From: Candidatus Roizmanbacteria bacterium CG10_big_fil_rev_8_21_14_0_10_45_7
GTDB lineage: Bacteria; Patescibacteriota; Microgenomatia; UBA1406
Direction of reading: 5' to 3'
Assembly: GCA_002793745.1 (NCBI GenBank)
Contig: PFEE01000006.1
Coordinates: forward strand, 21,022-34,800
Length of the DNA stretch: 13,779 bases
In this document: positions 3,750 through 13,623 of the stretch, one piece after another
Layout of the letters: each line of letters begins with the position of its first letter
How positions within the stretch are numbered: the stretch's first letter is position 1
Notes under the pieces: model-generated
Told to the model about the DNA's origin: nothing
What the model saw: the letters and a program-made list of their open reading frames with translations, nothing else
Database searches by the model: none
Translations under genes and position numbers: made by a program

Positions 3750-5018
3750 ATGATCAATAACCGCTCCATAAAAGCCGTTTCACAAGCAACCTATCATGAA
3801 CAATTTATGCGCCCGCTGTATGATTCATACTGTTTTTCAAATATTCCTGGAACGATTGAGTACTTGCTAACCGGCACGCAAAACCGAACACTGCCACTGG
3901 ACACCTTAGGAAAGAAAACAAGATCAAATAAAGTGCTGCTGCTATTCATTGACAGCTTTGGGTGGGTGTTTTTTGAAAAGTATAAAAACAGATATCCCTT
4001 CCTCTCACGATTTGTTAAGCAGGGCACTGTGTCAAAATTAACGAGCCAGTTTCCCTCCACCACCGCTGCACATGTCACCAATATTCATACGGGATTAACC
4101 AGCGGAGAAAGCGGCATTTATGAATGGACCTATTGGGAACCAAAAATTCAACAGCTTATTAACCCGCTTTTGTTTAGCGTAGCCGACGGTTCAAAAGGAC
4201 GCGGAACGCTTAACGCACTGGGTGTAAAACCGTCAGATCTGTTTCCCCGACAAACGATATACCAAAGACTAAAAGAGAAAGGTATTACCTCTCATATTCA
4301 TCAATATAATATGTATACCCCGTCGGAATACTCCGATGTGGTATTTGACGGCGCCATTATCCACCCCTATTCATCATTTGCCCGCGGACTTACCGAATTG
4401 GCAGATAATATCAACAACACCAGCGGGAAACAGTACTTTTTCTACTACTACGACTTTATTGATGGCGCTGCCCATCTTGGTGGTCCTGATTCACCCTTTC
4501 AACTTGCAGAAATACATAACACCTTCACGATGCTTGAGGATTTGTTATATAAAAAAATTGCCAATATTGAAGACCTCACTATTTTACTCACCGCTGATCA
4601 TGGCATGGCCTCGGTTGATCCTGCAACCTGCATCTATATCGACCAATTACCAACCTACCAGAAACACATCAAGCCATATCTAGAAAAGCATAATAAAAAA
4701 CCCATTGCTCCCATCGGGTCTCCTCGCGATATGTTTTTGCGTATTTCTGATCAGCATACAGCAACCGTAATAGATCACCTCACTCCCCTATTAAAAGGTC
4801 GCGTTGAAGTTGTTGCAACACGGACCTTAATTGAACAAGGCTTCTTTGGCTCAGCATCAGATGAGTTCAAGGCAAAGGTAGGTTCAATTACGCTACTTCC
4901 CTATAATAAAAACGCCGTTTGGTGGTACGGTGAGAACGGCGAATTTAAGCTTACGTATCATGGACATCATGGCGGACTCACTCCACAGGAAATGCAAATA
5001 CCGTTCCTAGTATTATAA
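3750..5018 (+). CDS. Alkaline phosphatase superfamily phosphodiesterase / nucleotide pyrophosphatase
   Basis: A 422-residue metal-dependent hydrolase of the type I phosphodiesterase/nucleotide pyrophosphatase branch (NPP-like). The family metal and nucleophile motifs appear in order: LLLFIDSFG with metal-binding D68; FPSTTAAHVT with the likely nucleophile T105; YYYDFIDGAAHLGG with D238 and H242; LLTADHGM with D283 and H284; and HGHHGG (404-409) near the C-terminus. These fit a two-zinc active site that cleaves phosphodiester or pyrophosphate bonds. The substrate cannot be read from sequence. There is no signal peptide and no membrane segment, so the protein is probably cytoplasmic, unlike many secreted relatives. 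It is the only plus-strand gene in the window. It is divergent from ftsK, and its stop overlaps that of the convergent neighbour by 6 bases. Confidence 0.88.
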   Translation: MINNRSIKAVSQATYHEQFMRPLYDSYCFSNIPGTIEYLLTGTQNRTLPLDTLGKKTRSNKVLLLFIDSFGWVFFEKYKNRYPFLSRFVKQGTVSKLTSQFPSTTAAHVTNIHTGLTSGESGIYEWTYWEPKIQQLINPLLFSVADGSKGRGTLNALGVKPSDLFPRQTIYQRLKEKGITSHIHQYNMYTPSEYSDVVFDGAIIHPYSSFARGLTELADNINNTSGKQYFFYYYDFIDGAAHLGGPDSPFQLAEIHNTFTMLEDLLYKKIANIEDLTILLTADHGMASVDPATCIYIDQLPTYQKHIKPYLEKHNKKPIAPIGSPRDMFLRISDQHTATVIDHLTPLLKGRVEVVATRTLIEQGFFGSASDEFKAKVGSITLLPYNKNAVWWYGENGEFKLTYHGHHGGLTPQEMQIPFLVL

Positions 5019-6110
5019 ACCTTTAGCCACTAATGCTTGTGCCGTATAGAAATCTCCCAATAACTCGCGGCGGCGTTCTTCAGTGAATTGAGGTGGCCCT
5101 GCATAACTAAGCGCCTTTAGAAAGCCCTCACCCAACTCTCCATTCATCGAACGTCCATTATAAATTTGCATTAAGCCTGCTGCTGTTTTCAATGCATCCT
5201 GTCGTGCGCCAATGATGCTTCCATCGATATGAACTCCTTCTTTTATATTTGATGCAATAAGTAAATTTTCTAAAAAACTTAATCCTCGCTTATGTGATCC
5301 ATCAGACTGTACTACTTCTGGCCAACACCTAAAATTGCGTTCTTGATCAAGGACGGGCATATCAATTGCTTCGTGGGGAGCGCTTAAGTTACGTACCACG
5401 AACTGAGGTCTCTGTGTTGGCTGCACTCGTGGAACGAGCCCTCCAGCTCGAGCCACCTCAGGGAGAGAATTTTTTCCAATAACCAAAACCTCAACGCTAC
5501 ACCCTTCAGGAGTCATTGCGCAAATTAAACCATATCCAGCATTTCCGGCTTCTATAACCATTTCGCCTCCTCCTAATGAACCATTGCCTCTGCCAGAAAA
5601 CCCATATACTCCTTGGTCGGCAAGACTATCAATCGCTTCCAAAAATGATGCCTCCTCGCCTTCTACCGGTGATATTAATACATCTAAATCTGAAAAAGGG
5701 GTAGAGGGAAATCCTCTTGAAGAAAAAGAGCCTGTAGGTACAGCGTTTACTCCATAGCTTCCAAAATGGCCAACAAGACGGTCTTGTAATCGCCCTAAAT
5801 ATTCACCATGCTGCTCTATGGTTCTCGATCCCCGTTCAGGAAACATCATTCCGGCAAATGCGTTAATGAGATGTTTATTCATGGTTGCATCAATAATTCC
5901 TAGTCTGGCGGCAACGGCATCTCGTTGCTCATCAGTGAGGCCAAACATGGTATTTACAATATCTTCATAGTTGGAAACAAAACCCGTACTCATTTGTCCT
6001 CCAGTAGCAATATAGTTATAAATAGAATCTATGCGACACAAAAGAGACCGTATTTGTTCCTGCGAAGATTGGGGTTCCGAATAATGATGTATAGAATTAT
6101 CTACACCCAT
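5013..6110 (-). CDS. Nucleotidyltransferase-fold protein, second member of the module
   Basis: A 365-residue protein of no family I can name. It carries a Pol-beta-type nucleotidyltransferase signature: TGSF (G127, S128), then 11 residues, then SDLDVLI (S140, D141, D143), the GS...SDxD pattern that holds two catalytic metals. The usual third acidic residue on a later strand may be E207 in CSVEVLVI, a Glu rather than the more common Asp. Residues about 20-110 are probably helical and there is a Gly-rich loop near 175-185. The C-terminal third is helical, as in many enzymes of this fold. The ATG at 6110 is preferred; an in-frame TTG at 6143 would add 11 hydrophobic residues and begin 3 bases after the upstream stop. 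No Shine-Dalgarno is evident for either. The substrate (nucleotide, tRNA, protein or small molecule) is unknown. Confidence 0.65.
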   Translation of the reverse strand: MGVDNSIHHYSEPQSSQEQIRSLLCRIDSIYNYIATGGQMSTGFVSNYEDIVNTMFGLTDEQRDAVAARLGIIDATMNKHLINAFAGMMFPERGSRTIEQHGEYLGRLQDRLVGHFGSYGVNAVPTGSFSSRGFPSTPFSDLDVLISPVEGEEASFLEAIDSLADQGVYGFSGRGNGSLGGGEMVIEAGNAGYGLICAMTPEGCSVEVLVIGKNSLPEVARAGGLVPRVQPTQRPQFVVRNLSAPHEAIDMPVLDQERNFRCWPEVVQSDGSHKRGLSFLENLLIASNIKEGVHIDGSIIGARQDALKTAAGLMQIYNGRSMNGELGEGFLKALSYAGPPQFTEERRRELLGDFYTAQALVAKGL

Positions 6111-6146
6111 AGGTAATGGTAACAAGGAAAAATAAAAAAACAAGAC

Positions 6147-6731
6147 TTATGCCGAATGTTTTGAATAGATCTGCAAAAAATTTTGTAATTCGTTTATTTT
6201 TACTTCAACTTCGTTTGCTAGTTCGGTAAAAAAAATTTTATACACCTTGCTGTTTTTTTCCCAATATCCAATTAACAAAGAATATTCTTGTAGTAACGGT
6301 ATATAAAAATCTCTGTACCAGCCAATACCATTTGCCGAAACCACAAAAATACTTTTAGATGTATTGTCTAAAATATCTACCAGTTTAATTATCGAGCATT
6401 CTTCTGAAACAAAATACAAAGGGGCTATAGCCTCTTTAATTGTTTTATCTTTAAAGTCTATCGTCATCTCTTTAACTAATCGAAGTACGTCTTTATTGGT
6501 TAACTGTACTATCTCTTTTTCTGTTGCATCCGTGTCCTCTAACAGGTCGTGAAACAAACCCGCAATAATAATTGCTTGCTTTTTTTGCGCAGAGATACTG
6601 CTTTTGTCCAAAACCAGCTTGAGCTTGCATCCTACTCTTAGGCCGTGTTCAAAAATACTTGTTTTTGAGCCATCAACAAGGTTACCCAGCTTTTTGTGTG
6701 CAAATGCTACTTCTTTGGGGAAAAAGCTCAT
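6147..6731 (-). CDS. HD-domain phosphohydrolase, RelA/SpoT hydrolase-like
   Basis: A 194-residue single-domain protein. The HD metal set is complete: H29 in SIFEHGLRV, H61-D62 in AGLFHDLLEDT, and D119 in IIKLVDILDNT. E65-D66 and N123 match the extra catalytic and guanine-site residues of (p)ppGpp hydrolases (pattern LLHD..EDt ... K.aDr.hN). It therefore resembles the hydrolase half of SpoT or a stand-alone small alarmone hydrolase; no synthetase domain is present. A longer reading starting at 6806 exists, but the ATG at 6731 overlaps the upstream stop as ATGA and the family-like region begins there, so the short form is chosen. The C-terminal 60 residues are helical and not conserved. The substrate could be ppGpp or another nucleotide, including the product of a neighbouring nucleotidyltransferase (inference). 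The gene looks AT-rich. Confidence 0.75.
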   Translation of the reverse strand: MSFFPKEVAFAHKKLGNLVDGSKTSIFEHGLRVGCKLKLVLDKSSISAQKKQAIIIAGLFHDLLEDTDATEKEIVQLTNKDVLRLVKEMTIDFKDKTIKEAIAPLYFVSEECSIIKLVDILDNTSKSIFVVSANGIGWYRDFYIPLLQEYSLLIGYWEKNSKVYKIFFTELANEVEVKINELQNFLQIYSKHSA

Positions 6732-7528
6732 CGGTGTAGTTTTTCCTCTAACTTTGCTACTATTTCTTCTTTCAGTATAGGATTGTCGTAAGTCAGCGCA
6801 TTCCACACTTCTGCTGAGCCAGGATAATGGGGATCAAGAAGTCCGAGTTGGTACAGTCGACATAAATCATGAGTGTCCTGTTTTGGTACTCCCACTTGTG
6901 TCTGCCCTCCATATGCGCATAATCCATTCCCATTTCTGTTCATAGTTACTTTATAGAAACCGGTAAAAGCTGGGTGTGCAACGTGAACCTTCTGGCCGTC
7001 GACAATAACATGATCCGTATAGTCAAAAAGCACCCGCTGGTTCGTAGGATATGAATATGCTCTATTTGCTAATAAAGGAACCGTAGCACATTGAGGAAAA
7101 ACAGTAATCATCGTTGTTAAAAAATCCACCGGAAACTCATTAAAATCAGTCTGGACAATCGGGTTGGTAAATCTATACCCATGATGTTCTCTCGGGTCGG
7201 TTAGGAATTCAATGCCTCCAAAACCGGTACTCGCGTGAAGCGCTGCGTAAATTTGTTGCAATTTTTCGTAGCCGTCCTTAGGGTCCGAATGCCAAATAAT
7301 AATATCGGCATCGGTAGGTTTCCTGTCAATAATTTTTTGGTCCAGCTGTCGTAATGTAACACTGCCTCCCGCTGTAACAAACCAGTCTTTTCTGGGCAAA
7401 CCTATCTGATCTAATACATTTCCTACCTGTACGACGGTATCTAAAAAAGGCGCATACTCGGGGTATGCGCTCCTTTCAATTCCTCTATTAAAACATATGT
7501 CTTTCACTACTCCATTGTCTGCGCTCAT
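6728..7528 (-). CDS. Nucleotidyltransferase-fold protein, first gene of the module
   Basis: A 266-residue protein with the layout of the MNT/AbiEii-like nucleotidyltransferases. FVTAGGSVTLRQL (G54, G55, S56) is followed by RKPTDADIIIW (D73, D75) and a third acidic residue D135 in FPVDFLTT. Near the C-terminus KQDTHDLCRLYQLGLLD (K216, D218, D221) resembles the KD..Dl..L helix that follows the catalytic domain in AbiEii-type proteins. The three carboxylates suggest an active enzyme transferring NMP to an unknown acceptor. The region after D135 contains unusual Tyr/Asn/Gly-rich stretches (NRAYSYPTNQR, NRNGNGLCAYGG) that I cannot assign. It starts 18 bases past an intrinsic terminator, with no Shine-Dalgarno, and its stop overlaps the next gene by ATGA, so it is probably coupled to the HD hydrolase. 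It could be a toxin, an RNA-modifying enzyme or a metabolic enzyme. Confidence 0.65.
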   Translation of the reverse strand: MSADNGVVKDICFNRGIERSAYPEYAPFLDTVVQVGNVLDQIGLPRKDWFVTAGGSVTLRQLDQKIIDRKPTDADIIIWHSDPKDGYEKLQQIYAALHASTGFGGIEFLTDPREHHGYRFTNPIVQTDFNEFPVDFLTTMITVFPQCATVPLLANRAYSYPTNQRVLFDYTDHVIVDGQKVHVAHPAFTGFYKVTMNRNGNGLCAYGGQTQVGVPKQDTHDLCRLYQLGLLDPHYPGSAEVWNALTYDNPILKEEIVAKLEEKLHR

Positions 7529-7546: not shown

Positions 7547-7570
7547 AAAAAAAAGCGCCCCGTAGGGCGC
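7547..7570 (-). terminator. Rho-independent terminator after pnp
   Basis: On the minus strand GCGCCC, loop TACG and GGGCGC form a perfect 6-bp GC-only stem followed directly by eight T residues (7547-7554). It lies 69 bases beyond the pnp stop and 18 bases before the next start codon, so it ends the rpsO-pnp transcript and separates it from the nucleotidyltransferase/HD module. Confidence 0.92.
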
Positions 7571-10551: not shown

Positions 10552-11140
10552 AGAGAGATTCTACCTCAGAAAGGGTAATGCCCGCTTCTAATAATTTTTG
10601 TATGCCCGAACGCAAAAAACCCGCAGCGATCAGATCTTCGACCTGTTGCTGCGACACGCCCCGCGTAGACAGATAGTATTGTTCATCTTCTGATAGGTAT
10701 CCGGTGGTTGAACCATGGGTACAAAACACCTCATGCGCCTCAATTTCCAGCTTAGGCTCCGATACCACCCGCCCTTCACTACTTAATATAAGATTGTCAT
10801 TCTTTTGATACGCATGGCTGTGTGCGCCGGTTGTATCAATGGTGATAGTACCTTCAAAATGAAAAAATGACGTATCCCTTACCAGTGATTTACAGAGCAA
10901 GTCAGAGGTACTCTGTTTACTAGTATGACGCTGAAAGCTACGAATGGTATAGCTGCTGTTACCATTAAGCTGCACCAATATCACTACAAACAATCGAGAA
11001 TCTTCTGAAGGTTTCATATGAATTTCTATGTCACGCTCTGCGCTATCGCCAACGAGGTTCAGTACGACACAGGCAGTTTCATGTTTTTTTGAGATCAGTG
11101 TCAATGTGTTGCCTTTGGGGTTATTGATACAGCGAATCAT
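10529..11140 (-). CDS. sufD: Minimal SufD (SufBD-family core only)
   Basis: A 203-residue protein, about half the usual SufD length of roughly 400. The conserved SufBD core is present: FFHFEGTITI (93-101), YQKNDNLILS (111-120), PKLEIEAHEVFCTHGSTTG (129-147) with C140 and H142, and YYLSTRGVSQQQVEDLIAAGF (155-175). H142 sits where SufD carries its conserved HGAT histidine, important at the SufB-SufD cluster-building interface. The long N-terminal helical domain and part of the beta-helix of normal SufD are absent. The gene is not a frameshift remnant: it begins with an ATGA overlap on the sufB stop and has the strong Shine-Dalgarno GGAGGGGAG upstream. It is therefore probably a natural reduced SufD that pairs with SufB. 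Confidence 0.85.
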   Translation of the reverse strand: MIRCINNPKGNTLTLISKKHETACVVLNLVGDSAERDIEIHMKPSEDSRLFVVILVQLNGNSSYTIRSFQRHTSKQSTSDLLCKSLVRDTSFFHFEGTITIDTTGAHSHAYQKNDNLILSSEGRVVSEPKLEIEAHEVFCTHGSTTGYLSEDEQYYLSTRGVSQQQVEDLIAAGFLRSGIQKLLEAGITLSEVESLYGRAGLV

Positions 11141-13623
11141 CCGATACTCCCCTCCATTTCCAGCGCAATTAAGCGGTTGAGCTCAACGGCATACTCAAGG
11201 GGAAGTTCGCGCACCACTGAATCCAAAAAGCCGTTCACGATTAATGCCTCGGCGCGCTCCTTGGTCACGCCCCGCGACATGAGATAAAACAGCTGCTCAT
11301 CGCCAATTTTGGATACCACCGCTTCATGCTCAACTTGGGTGTGTTGTTCATCGATCTTCATGGTTGGATACGTGTCGGACCGTGACTGGGCATCCAGCAA
11401 GAGCGCGTCGCACACCACTTTTGTTTTGGTATGGTGGGCTCCCCGTTTTATATACACCAAACCGCGGTATGAGGTTCGTCCGGCGTCTTTGGCAATTGAC
11501 TTTGACACAATGCGCGAGGTGGTGTAAGGGGCAAAATGCATCATTTTGGCACCGGCATCCTGATGCTGGAGCGCTCCCGCATAGGCAATGGACAGCACCT
11601 CACCGCGCGCTCCCTCTCCCATGAGGTAACATGAGGGGTACTTCATGGTTAATTTACTATTGTGTACGATGATTCCGTTTGCAATAAAATTTTCCGCTCC
11701 TTCTACCTCAAGATCATATACTTTTTCTTTTTCTTGTGGGATAACAGCTTTTACCTGAACAAATGTGCCTATTGGTTGTTGAATATATTTATTTTTAATA
11801 ATGTCTAAACTTTTTTTGGCTTTCAAAACAAGAAAATGAGAAATATATGTCTTTAATTTTCCTTTATAAAGCTTTCTCTCTTTCACGTATGTCGAAATTT
11901 TTAATGGATCAAGTCCGCAGGATATTAAAAGATATTTACACTGCAATAATAATGCTTTATTACTGCTCGAAAAAGTAATCTGGCCATATTCTCTCCCTTG
12001 TATTGTTTTATGATTTCGTATGTATCCATCGGCATCTAAATATCCTTCAATAAAAGCTAATCGCTGCTCAATGGGCAAGGTCCATATCCATTGGGGAATA
12101 TGCTTGTCTTTTGCAGTACCATCAAAATCAAGCTTCATCAGTAATGATGCGATAACGACCGAGTTGATAGTGACTGAAATACCCTTCTCGCTATAGGGAA
12201 TATGAAATAGTTTATCGATCACTTGTATCAGTCGTTTTCTTGATTTATCTTTTGGCGGAATCGCTAGATAGACTCTATTTGGGTGTCCTGCTCTATTTCG
12301 ATCAACAAACCCATCTCCAAGATATAAACCCAGAAGCCACATGAAATCATTATTAGTCTCCTGGGGCAAGATGGGGTGGTGTTTTAAGTTTTTATATTGG
12401 TGTCGGTACTCAATACTATACGGCTTCCCTTCGTCTGGTAAGGACTGAGCTACAGCAACATAGTCACCAATATGTATATTTTTCAACTCTTTCCAATGCA
12501 TGATATAGGATGATGCGTACCGTTCTTTAGATAAAACGAGAAAGGGATGATTATCAGTTGCTTTAATTGAACGAAAATTTTGTGTAACCAATTCATAGAC
12601 TGATCTCGTTCCAGTAACACGAGTTGCCTTCACTGGAAATGCTTTAATACAATATGTTTTAGGGTCAAGACCATAGAGTTTATCTCCTGCTCTTATATCT
12701 ACTACATTCATGAGTCCCTTATTTTTTTCATACACCTTTGTATCTCCTGCTAAGCATCCTAAATTACCGTCAATCCATTGCATAGTGGCCTGCTTTTCAA
12801 CCCGTGCCCTCTTGGTTACTAGGTTATATACATTCGGGCTCCAATTTTGCACGGTGGTGTAGCGTACCTTGGCTTCCTCCTTTACAAAAATTTCAACCAC
12901 CGCGCTGTGAAGCGACGAGGTTGTGTATGTAGGAGCACTGCAACCCTCTATATAATGAACCGATGATGCCTCCTCGGCAATAATAAGCGTGCGTTCAAAC
13001 TGGCCCATGTTTTGCGTGTTAATGCGGAAATAGGCCTGAAGCGGCATGGGAATCGTTACTCCTTTGGGAATATATACAAAACTGCCACCAGACCAAAACG
13101 CCGTATTGAGTGCCGCAAATTTGTTATCGGCAGCAGGGATAAGCGTACCGAAATATGCTTTAAACAGCTCAGGATACTCGCGTAAGCCGCTGTCAGTGTC
13201 CAAAAAAACAACACCGAGTTTTGAAAGCTCACTGTGGATTGACTTATATAACACCTCGGACTCGTACTGAGCGGAAACACCGGACAGATACTTCTTTTCT
13301 GCCTCAGGAATACCCAAATAATCGTAGGTTTTTTTGATGTCGGCAGGAAGTTCATTCCATGAATTGGCTTTTTTGGCCTCGGGACGAACATAGTAATGAA
13401 TGCTTTCAAAATCAATTCTGGAAAGGTCGCCACCCCAGGCAGGCAAAGACTTTTTCTGAAATATAGAGTAGGCCGCCAGGCGCCGTTCAAGCATCCACGA
13501 CGGTTCCTGCTTGTAGGCAGACAGCTCACGAATAACCCTCTCGCTCAAACCCGGCTTTGCCTTAAAGGCGTAGGCGCTGTCTGATCGCATATCCCACTGT
13601 GAGATGTGGCTATCTGCTCCCAT
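11137..13623 (-). CDS. sufB: SufB Fe-S cluster scaffold, interrupted by an in-frame intein
   Basis: An 828-codon frame encoding SufB (residues 1-289 and 656-828, 462 residues once joined, normal length) with an intein between. SufB with SufC and SufD forms the scaffold that assembles Fe-S clusters in the cytoplasm. N-extein marks include FVYIPKGVTIPMPLQAYFRI (182-201) and VHYIEGCSAPTYT. C-extein marks include SKLTMKYPSCYLMGEGARGE, VEHEAVVSKIGDEQLFYLMS and the C-terminus LPLEYAVELNRLIALEMEGSIG-type, close to Gram-positive SufB. As in Bacillus, the position of the E. coli cluster cysteine (C405) is not Cys here (LLLDAQSRSDT). The sufC stop lies 3 bases upstream; no good Shine-Dalgarno is seen at the ATG. 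The stop overlaps sufD by ATGA. Splicing is needed for activity. Confidence 0.95.
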   Translation of the reverse strand: MGADSHISQWDMRSDSAYAFKAKPGLSERVIRELSAYKQEPSWMLERRLAAYSIFQKKSLPAWGGDLSRIDFESIHYYVRPEAKKANSWNELPADIKKTYDYLGIPEAEKKYLSGVSAQYESEVLYKSIHSELSKLGVVFLDTDSGLREYPELFKAYFGTLIPAADNKFAALNTAFWSGGSFVYIPKGVTIPMPLQAYFRINTQNMGQFERTLIIAEEASSVHYIEGCSAPTYTTSSLHSAVVEIFVKEEAKVRYTTVQNWSPNVYNLVTKRARVEKQATMQWIDGNLGCLAGDTKVYEKNKGLMNVVDIRAGDKLYGLDPKTYCIKAFPVKATRVTGTRSVYELVTQNFRSIKATDNHPFLVLSKERYASSYIMHWKELKNIHIGDYVAVAQSLPDEGKPYSIEYRHQYKNLKHHPILPQETNNDFMWLLGLYLGDGFVDRNRAGHPNRVYLAIPPKDKSRKRLIQVIDKLFHIPYSEKGISVTINSVVIASLLMKLDFDGTAKDKHIPQWIWTLPIEQRLAFIEGYLDADGYIRNHKTIQGREYGQITFSSSNKALLLQCKYLLISCGLDPLKISTYVKERKLYKGKLKTYISHFLVLKAKKSLDIIKNKYIQQPIGTFVQVKAVIPQEKEKVYDLEVEGAENFIANGIIVHNSKLTMKYPSCYLMGEGARGEVLSIAYAGALQHQDAGAKMMHFAPYTTSRIVSKSIAKDAGRTSYRGLVYIKRGAHHTKTKVVCDALLLDAQSRSDTYPTMKIDEQHTQVEHEAVVSKIGDEQLFYLMSRGVTKERAEALIVNGFLDSVVRELPLEYAVELNRLIALEMEGSIG
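11659..12756 (-). mobile_element. SufB intein with LAGLIDADG homing endonuclease
   Basis: A complete 366-residue intein (SufB precursor residues 290-655). It begins with C290 (block A, CLAGDTKVYEKNKG), has the block B T-x-x-H motif (T356, H359 in KATDNHPFLVL), and ends with blocks F and G (VYDLEVEGAENFIANG, then IIVHN with H654-N655), followed by the +1 nucleophile S656. The middle holds a two-motif LAGLIDADG endonuclease: LLGLYLGDG (D437) and FIEGYLDADG (D530, D532). All splicing and catalytic residues are intact, so both self-splicing and homing appear possible. The insertion splits a highly conserved SufB motif, GNLG before and SKLTMKYPS after. The DNA is visibly AT-richer than the flanking extein: 14 of 60 bases are G/C at 11821-11880 versus 30 of 60 at 11401-11460. 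Confidence 0.96.

Follow-up and report, generated by a model that had tools for sequence, protein, structure and literature searches.

A rare family of putative nucleotidyltransferases in Patescibacteria and its link to an ENPP-like phosphodiesterase

The window analysed here is a stretch of 13,779 nt from Candidatus Roizmanbacteria bacterium CG10_big_fil_rev_8_21_14_0_10_45_7 (contig PFEE01000006.1; G000:C35:21022-34800 in a 634 kb metagenome-assembled genome (MAG), G000, that is 80% complete). One of its genes, ORF3, belongs to a rare family of putative nucleotidyltransferases (NTases) that is tied to a gene encoding an ENPP-like phosphodiesterase (PDE) in Patescibacteria, which is a modest finding. 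A preliminary description had left PDE outside and had grouped ORF3 with the two genes that precede it, ORF1 (NTase motifs) and ORF2 (HD hydrolase), as one module. We would give an even chance to a reading in which the locus comprises two things: a linked NTase/phosphodiesterase pair made of ORF3 and PDE, and an accessory couple, ORF1 and the HD gene, located in a variable interval that extends from PNP to ORF3 and PDE.

The ORF3 family was found in five genomes: three from Roizmanbacteria, which are members of Microgenomates, one from Nomurabacteria, which the NCBI taxonomy places within the Parcubacteria group, and one from Paceibacterota. PDE adjoins the NTase gene in four of them. In the window and in a same-genus relative (G001, matched to Ca. 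Roizmanbacteria P6-15; 87% complete), the two genes are convergent and touch each other, whereas in a same-family relative (G002, matched to Ca. Roizmanbacteria RIFOXYC1_FULL_41_16; 94% complete), they are 2.7 kb apart within one interval. In the two remaining loci, L060 (G580, Nomurabacteria RIFOXYB1_FULL_39_16) and L050 (G581, the Paceibacterota MAG), which were read by eye, the NTase gene lies 3' of PDE on the same strand after a gap of 17 nt. As both loci had first been found via PDE, a search with the NTase profile alone was then made independently of PDE; it retrieved the same two genomes from 296 relatives of the Nomurabacteria genome (E 1e-4), and PDE itself was detected in these two only out of 256 (E 1e-20). 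Among the relatives of the window, the ORF3 family occurs in 3 of 233, and these 3 are also the ones that have PDE out of 13 tested for it. A phylum sample of 379 genomes searched with the ORF3 profile yielded G000 and three weak matches; the one that was read (G368, E 5e-6) proved to be a short NTase of a generic kind and was set aside, the two others being in G123 and G153 (E 5e-4 and 2e-3). A single-sequence match in G312 (E 0.003) was also read and set aside as due to chance or to another family. The pair is rare and patchy, yet linked in two lineages.

The assignment of PDE to the type I phosphodiesterases/nucleotide pyrophosphatases relies on a PF01663 match (1.7e-23, 84.2 bits for a Pfam curated cut-off of 23), its nearest solved relatives being chains of ENPP1, 3, 4 and 5 (9e-7 and weaker). 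The candidate catalytic residues are present (D68, T104/T105, D238, H242, D283, H284 and H406/H407). Among 27 PDE loci from named genomes, at least four carry a gene of the ORF3 family (two from Roizmanbacteria, L060 and L050), this count being a lower bound as some loci stop near PDE. In the 23 others, PDE is found without this NTase and with varied neighbours (by eye); therefore, PDE must also act independently of the NTase, and of the two partners ORF3 would be the one that depends on the other. At another locus (L042 823-2193, uncultured bacterium), a PDE homologue adjoins a fused NTase-HEPN protein (PF01909 4e-9, PF05168 5e-8) with a NUDIX gene alongside, which is a second and unrelated kind of NTase beside the PDE family.

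ORF3 carries GS at residues 127-128, DLD at 141-143 and VE at 206-207. This motif by itself is weak, because a looser three-part NTase pattern arises in 1214 of 20000 shuffles of ORF3 and in 17 of 549 background open reading frames (ORFs); stronger evidence comes from its conservation, since GS-X11/12-DLD followed by a third E or D, as expected in the NTase superfamily, is kept in all five members of the family. The predicted structure has an NTase-like core (model pLDDT 52) with a helical N-terminal part and a weakly modelled C-terminal half. ORF3 shares 59% identity with its G001 homologue, and the substitution rates (dN 0.34, dS 2.1) indicate that it is under purifying selection. It matches nothing in Pfam at E 10 or in PADLOC at E 1, and only unrelated NCBIfam and PHROGs entries at E 1 (E 0.17-0.25). 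Among profiles of the PDB, CD-NTases and URT1 rank first, with E values of 0.8-0.9, and the sequence search returned nothing useful. ORF3 and the alignment A3 have no match in viral contigs, nor does a homologue of ORF3 in phages or plasmids. Out of 5.8 billion proteins, ORF3 retrieves itself alone, as does ORF1, in a search that depends on common 5-residue words and that remote relatives can escape.

The three-gene module breaks up in the relatives, where only ORF3 recurs, beside PNP and PDE. In G002, PNP and PDE are in the same relative order as in the window, 5.4 kb apart and contiguous, and the interval includes genes for a 147-aa protein, a sub-threshold M64-peptidase-like protein, the ORF3 homologue, a HAD hydrolase, a protein similar to uridine kinases and another with weak similarity to HIT proteins (E 0.25). 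Neither ORF1 nor an HD gene is among them. In G001, a deoxynucleoside kinase gene (PF01712 1.7e-8) upstream of the ORF3 homologue occupies the place of the HD gene. Searches of both whole genomes found neither ORF1 nor HD at the thresholds used (E 1e-4 for HD), although in G001 the interval is divided over contigs C30 and C116 and either gene could fall in the gap between them. Beside PNP on C30 (L024 1-2319), three other genes are present, two without Pfam match and one weakly adenylate-kinase-like (E 0.04). The content of the interval differs between species. Because ORF1 and HD were not found with the ORF3 of these relatives and the HD loci that were read have no adjoining NTase, the three genes are not a unit and the module is rejected. 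This outcome corresponds in part to what the preliminary description had itself named as refuting it.

ORF2 matches PF01966 above its cut-off, part of the TIGR00691 model (8e-8, far below the cut-off of this model) and PDB entry 3nqw (CG11900, the Drosophila Mesh1; E 1.5e-6). No variation is seen at H29, H61-D62, E65-D66, K116, D119 and N123 when 16 sequences are aligned, and these positions include the metal-binding and catalytic residues of small alarmone hydrolases. The RelA/SpoT-type HD hydrolase announced in the preliminary description is confirmed as a protein of SpoT/Mesh1 type, with one departure: the basic residue that precedes the first His in small alarmone hydrolases, and that has a role in nucleobase recognition, is an Arg in 12 of the 16 sequences (counted by eye) and an Asp in ORF2 and in its nearest relative P0004. 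At E 1e-4, HD matches occur in 7 of 233 relatives, namely G000 and six distant genomes (7e-11 to 4e-5). None of the three distant loci that were read by eye has an adjoining NTase, and in two of them the HD gene adjoins nucleotide-enzyme-like genes (kinase-like and nucleoside-phosphorylase-like). At L068, an AbiE-like pair (by eye), one member of which is an NTase resembling AbiEii, is encoded on the opposite strand at a distance of 1.5 kb from the HD homologue. HD relatives were not found in viral contigs, and ORF2 has no PADLOC match at E 1. A phage record from human faeces (MT839270.1 378-914; 4.4 kb) carries an HD relative with 31% identity over 92% of ORF2.

ORF1 is an orphan. It shows the GG...DxD motif and third carboxylate of the NTase (pol beta) superfamily (GGS at 54-56, TDAD at 72-75 and VDF at 134-136) in a single sequence without homologue. 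The strict pattern GG..[RK]..D.D is reached by 37 of 20000 shuffles of ORF1 and by 2 of the 549 background ORFs, both being copies of ORF1 itself; the looser pattern is reached by 287 of 20000. ORF1 has no match in Pfam at E 10 (including AbiEii, PF08843, which would have pointed to an AbiE toxin-antitoxin) or in PADLOC, NCBIfam or PHROGs at E 1, nothing useful was retrieved from the PDB by sequence, and no relative was found in viral contigs, phages or plasmids. Among 185 relatives of the window it is restricted to G000, besides three weak matches judged to be due to chance (G173, G007 and G170, E 0.008-0.06), which are frames over other genes or unrelated proteins. Structure prediction gave no confident model; of the two NTase-fold proteins that had been announced, ORF3 has a conserved motif and a predicted NTase-like core, and ORF1 has NTase motifs.

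Table 1. Coordinates of the features discussed (positions in the window)
Feature	Position	Strand	Description
ORF1	6728..7528	-	Orphan protein; NTase motifs GGS, TDAD, VDF; retrieves itself alone among 5.8 billion proteins
ORF2	6147..6731	-	HD hydrolase, SpoT/Mesh1 type; PF01966 1.6e-5, 25.6 bits (cut-off 22); metal-binding set (H29, HD 61-62, ED 65-66, D119, N123) invariant, n=16
ORF3	5013..6110	-	Putative NTase family, GS-X12-DLD, E207; alternative start 5993; homologues in G001, G002, L050, L060
PDE	3750..5018	+	ENPP-like member of PF01663 (type I phosphodiesterase / nucleotide pyrophosphatase); gene convergent to ORF3
Terminator-like hairpin	7555..7570	-	Between PNP and ORF1
DNA-level conserved block, ORF3 5' end	6056..6132	-	74/77 nt shared with G001, 47 of them without interruption (6071-6117)

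The layout is as had been described: the three minus-strand frames are open, ORF1 and ORF2 have the 4 nt ATGA in common, ORF3 follows ORF2 after 36 nt if it starts at the ATG at 6110, and the flanks are a terminator-like hairpin 3' of PNP (GCGCCCTACGGGGCGC followed by T8 at 7570-7555) and PDE, whose last 6 nt are shared with the end of ORF3. The suggestion of an inserted cassette is retained as regards the variable interval but not as regards a foreign origin, as the GC content of ORF1 and ORF3 (0.43) is like that of PDE, PNP, SufB and S15 (0.43-0.45) and only HD is lower (0.34); at third codon positions (GC3), ORF1-3 have 0.30-0.37 versus 0.39-0.51 for six neighbours. The profile-scanned neighbours encode housekeeping proteins (FtsK, a RodZ-like helix-turn-helix protein, PNP, a NifU-like protein, SufB and a SufBD-core protein), and S15 and RpoB were also recognized by eye. 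The SufB gene (11137-13623) contains an intein, itself bearing a LAGLIDADG domain, that is missing from SufB of G001 (462 aa) and from the portion of SufB of G002 that was read, which would correspond either to a recent gain or to two losses.

The start of ORF3 is uncertain (6110 or 5993). Of five alignments of the window with G001, that of the ORF3 region shows the lowest conservation (63% of nucleotides), yet the block at its 5' end holds the longest identical run of all five, with an overall identity that PNP also attains, and dS over codons 1-39 is 0.33 versus 2.1 for the whole gene. This 77-nt block, which could be a promoter, an operator or a constrained start region, holds a promoter-like TTGTTA-18-GATAAT, a kind of site seen 8 times versus 11.5 expected in shuffles. 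If it is a promoter, ORF3 would be transcribed separately from ORF1-HD and might start at 5993, after GGAGG; against this start, G001 has ATA at that position and the model includes the N-terminal helix, with pLDDT block means of 60-81. The block is present in a single copy in the 177,940 bases of G000 that were sampled out of 634,434 (17 stretches, 16 contigs), is not matched in viral contigs, plasmids or phages, and has no Rfam match near gathering score and an RNA fold z of -0.25.

From the gene order, the motifs, the co-occurrence in two lineages and the conserved candidate catalytic residues, all of them observed, a scheme may be inferred for the activities, their coupling, the direction of the reaction and the target. 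For an NTase found beside a phosphodiesterase without any other constant partner, the simplest one would be that a nucleoside monophosphate (NMP) is added and removed, or that a nucleotide product is made and degraded. ORF3 would move the NMP from an NTP onto a target (a protein, an RNA end or a small molecule), PDE would hydrolyse the resulting phosphodiester or pyrophosphate bond, and the amount of a single modification or nucleotide product would be determined by the two together. The convergent layout of the window and G001 would allow opposed expression, and the operon-like layout of Nomurabacteria joint expression. ORF1-HD would be a coupled accessory couple, whose interval holds other genes in relatives, several of them for nucleotide enzymes. 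The modification/de-modification pair proposed earlier for an NTase and the HD hydrolase would survive in a new form, with ORF3 and PDE as the partners. If the pair is real, Patescibacteria possess a new family of NTases to which a phosphodiesterase is linked, and both enzymes are accessible to in vitro assay. The genomes of these bacteria are reduced and, to our knowledge, their regulation has been little studied. No paper on an NTase in Roizmanbacteria, on an NTase-nucleotide pyrophosphatase pair in the candidate phyla radiation or on a type I phosphodiesterase/NTase operon was found in the open-access literature. A more general lesson is that reading three genes in a single genome can join genes that relatives hold apart.

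The closest competitor, possible although we doubt it, is an accessory nucleotide-salvage island, in which ORF1, HD, ORF3 and PDE would be independent enzymes of a permissive interval and the proximity of PDE and the NTase would reflect no specific partnership. The kinases and HAD hydrolase in the intervals of G001 and G002, the nucleotide-enzyme-like neighbours of HD relatives and the PDE loci devoid of the NTase, some of which stop near PDE, are consistent with it. However, the NTase family was never seen apart from PDE in the genomes searched, two weak matches being unread, and in a second lineage the pair is found again while the other genes around it differ. A toxin-antitoxin or defence system, in which ORF1 and/or ORF3 would be NTase toxins or antitoxins and HD a partner, is unlikely: the NTase motifs, the ATGA overlap, the patchy occurrence, the NTase-HEPN fusion of L042 and the AbiE-like pair of L068 could evoke it, but ORF1-3 have no match in PADLOC at E 1, no AbiEii match was found for ORF1 or ORF3 at E 10, PDE has just a weak PglZ match in the PADLOC scan (0.012) and the named neighbours are housekeeping genes. 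This claim of the preliminary description finds no support. CBASS (a CD-NTase with an effector gene) was rejected in view of the lack of PADLOC matches for ORF1-3 and of the housekeeping matches of the other scanned genes in the window.

Alarmone turnover, also proposed there, would have ORF1 or ORF3 make (p)ppGpp or a relative that HD hydrolyses. It seems highly improbable, and ppGpp turnover is disfavoured, as the PF04607 synthetase was detected in none of G000, G001 and G002 (80%, 87% and 94% complete; control, 11 of 14 genomes), ORF2 has an Asp where most aligned sequences have an Arg, ORF3 carries the GS/DxD motif of true NTases, and G001 and G002 have ORF3 without a close HD. An HD hydrolase without cognate synthetase has a precedent, as an orphan small alarmone hydrolase is reported to act on NADPH as well (PMC9765508).

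Compared with known systems, ORF2 resembles the small alarmone hydrolases (HD domain of SpoT, Mesh1) by its HD fold and metal-binding residues and differs from them by the Asp before the first His and by the lack of a detected synthetase in the three Roizmanbacteria genomes. PDE resembles ENPP and other type I phosphodiesterases by its domain, relatives and candidate catalytic residues, and differs from them by the lack of an apparent signal peptide (by eye) and by its NTase partner in five genomes. The cGAS-ENPP1 couple of eukaryotes associates a synthase and a hydrolase; by analogy, an uncharacterised nucleotide signal or oligonucleotide of Patescibacteria could be made by ORF3 as synthase and broken down by PDE as hydrolase, an arrangement that we regard as improbable and that would differ by being cytosolic and by belonging to an ultra-small bacterium whose genome yielded no RelA-type synthetase. 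ORF3 differs from the Pol beta-type NTases (Pol lambda, Pol beta, PolX, Cid1) by the absence of significant sequence match to them, by its helical N-terminal part and by its weakly modelled C-terminal half. It was also rejected as a HEPN/MNT toxin-antitoxin component, as no HEPN match was detected in ORF1, ORF2 or PDE (Pfam), no HEPN partner lies within the window, and its family has GSX11/12DXD where MntA has GSX10DXD (PMC7641770). In HepT/MntA, the NTase adenylylates its partner protein, and ORF3 could, on this model, act in a comparable way.

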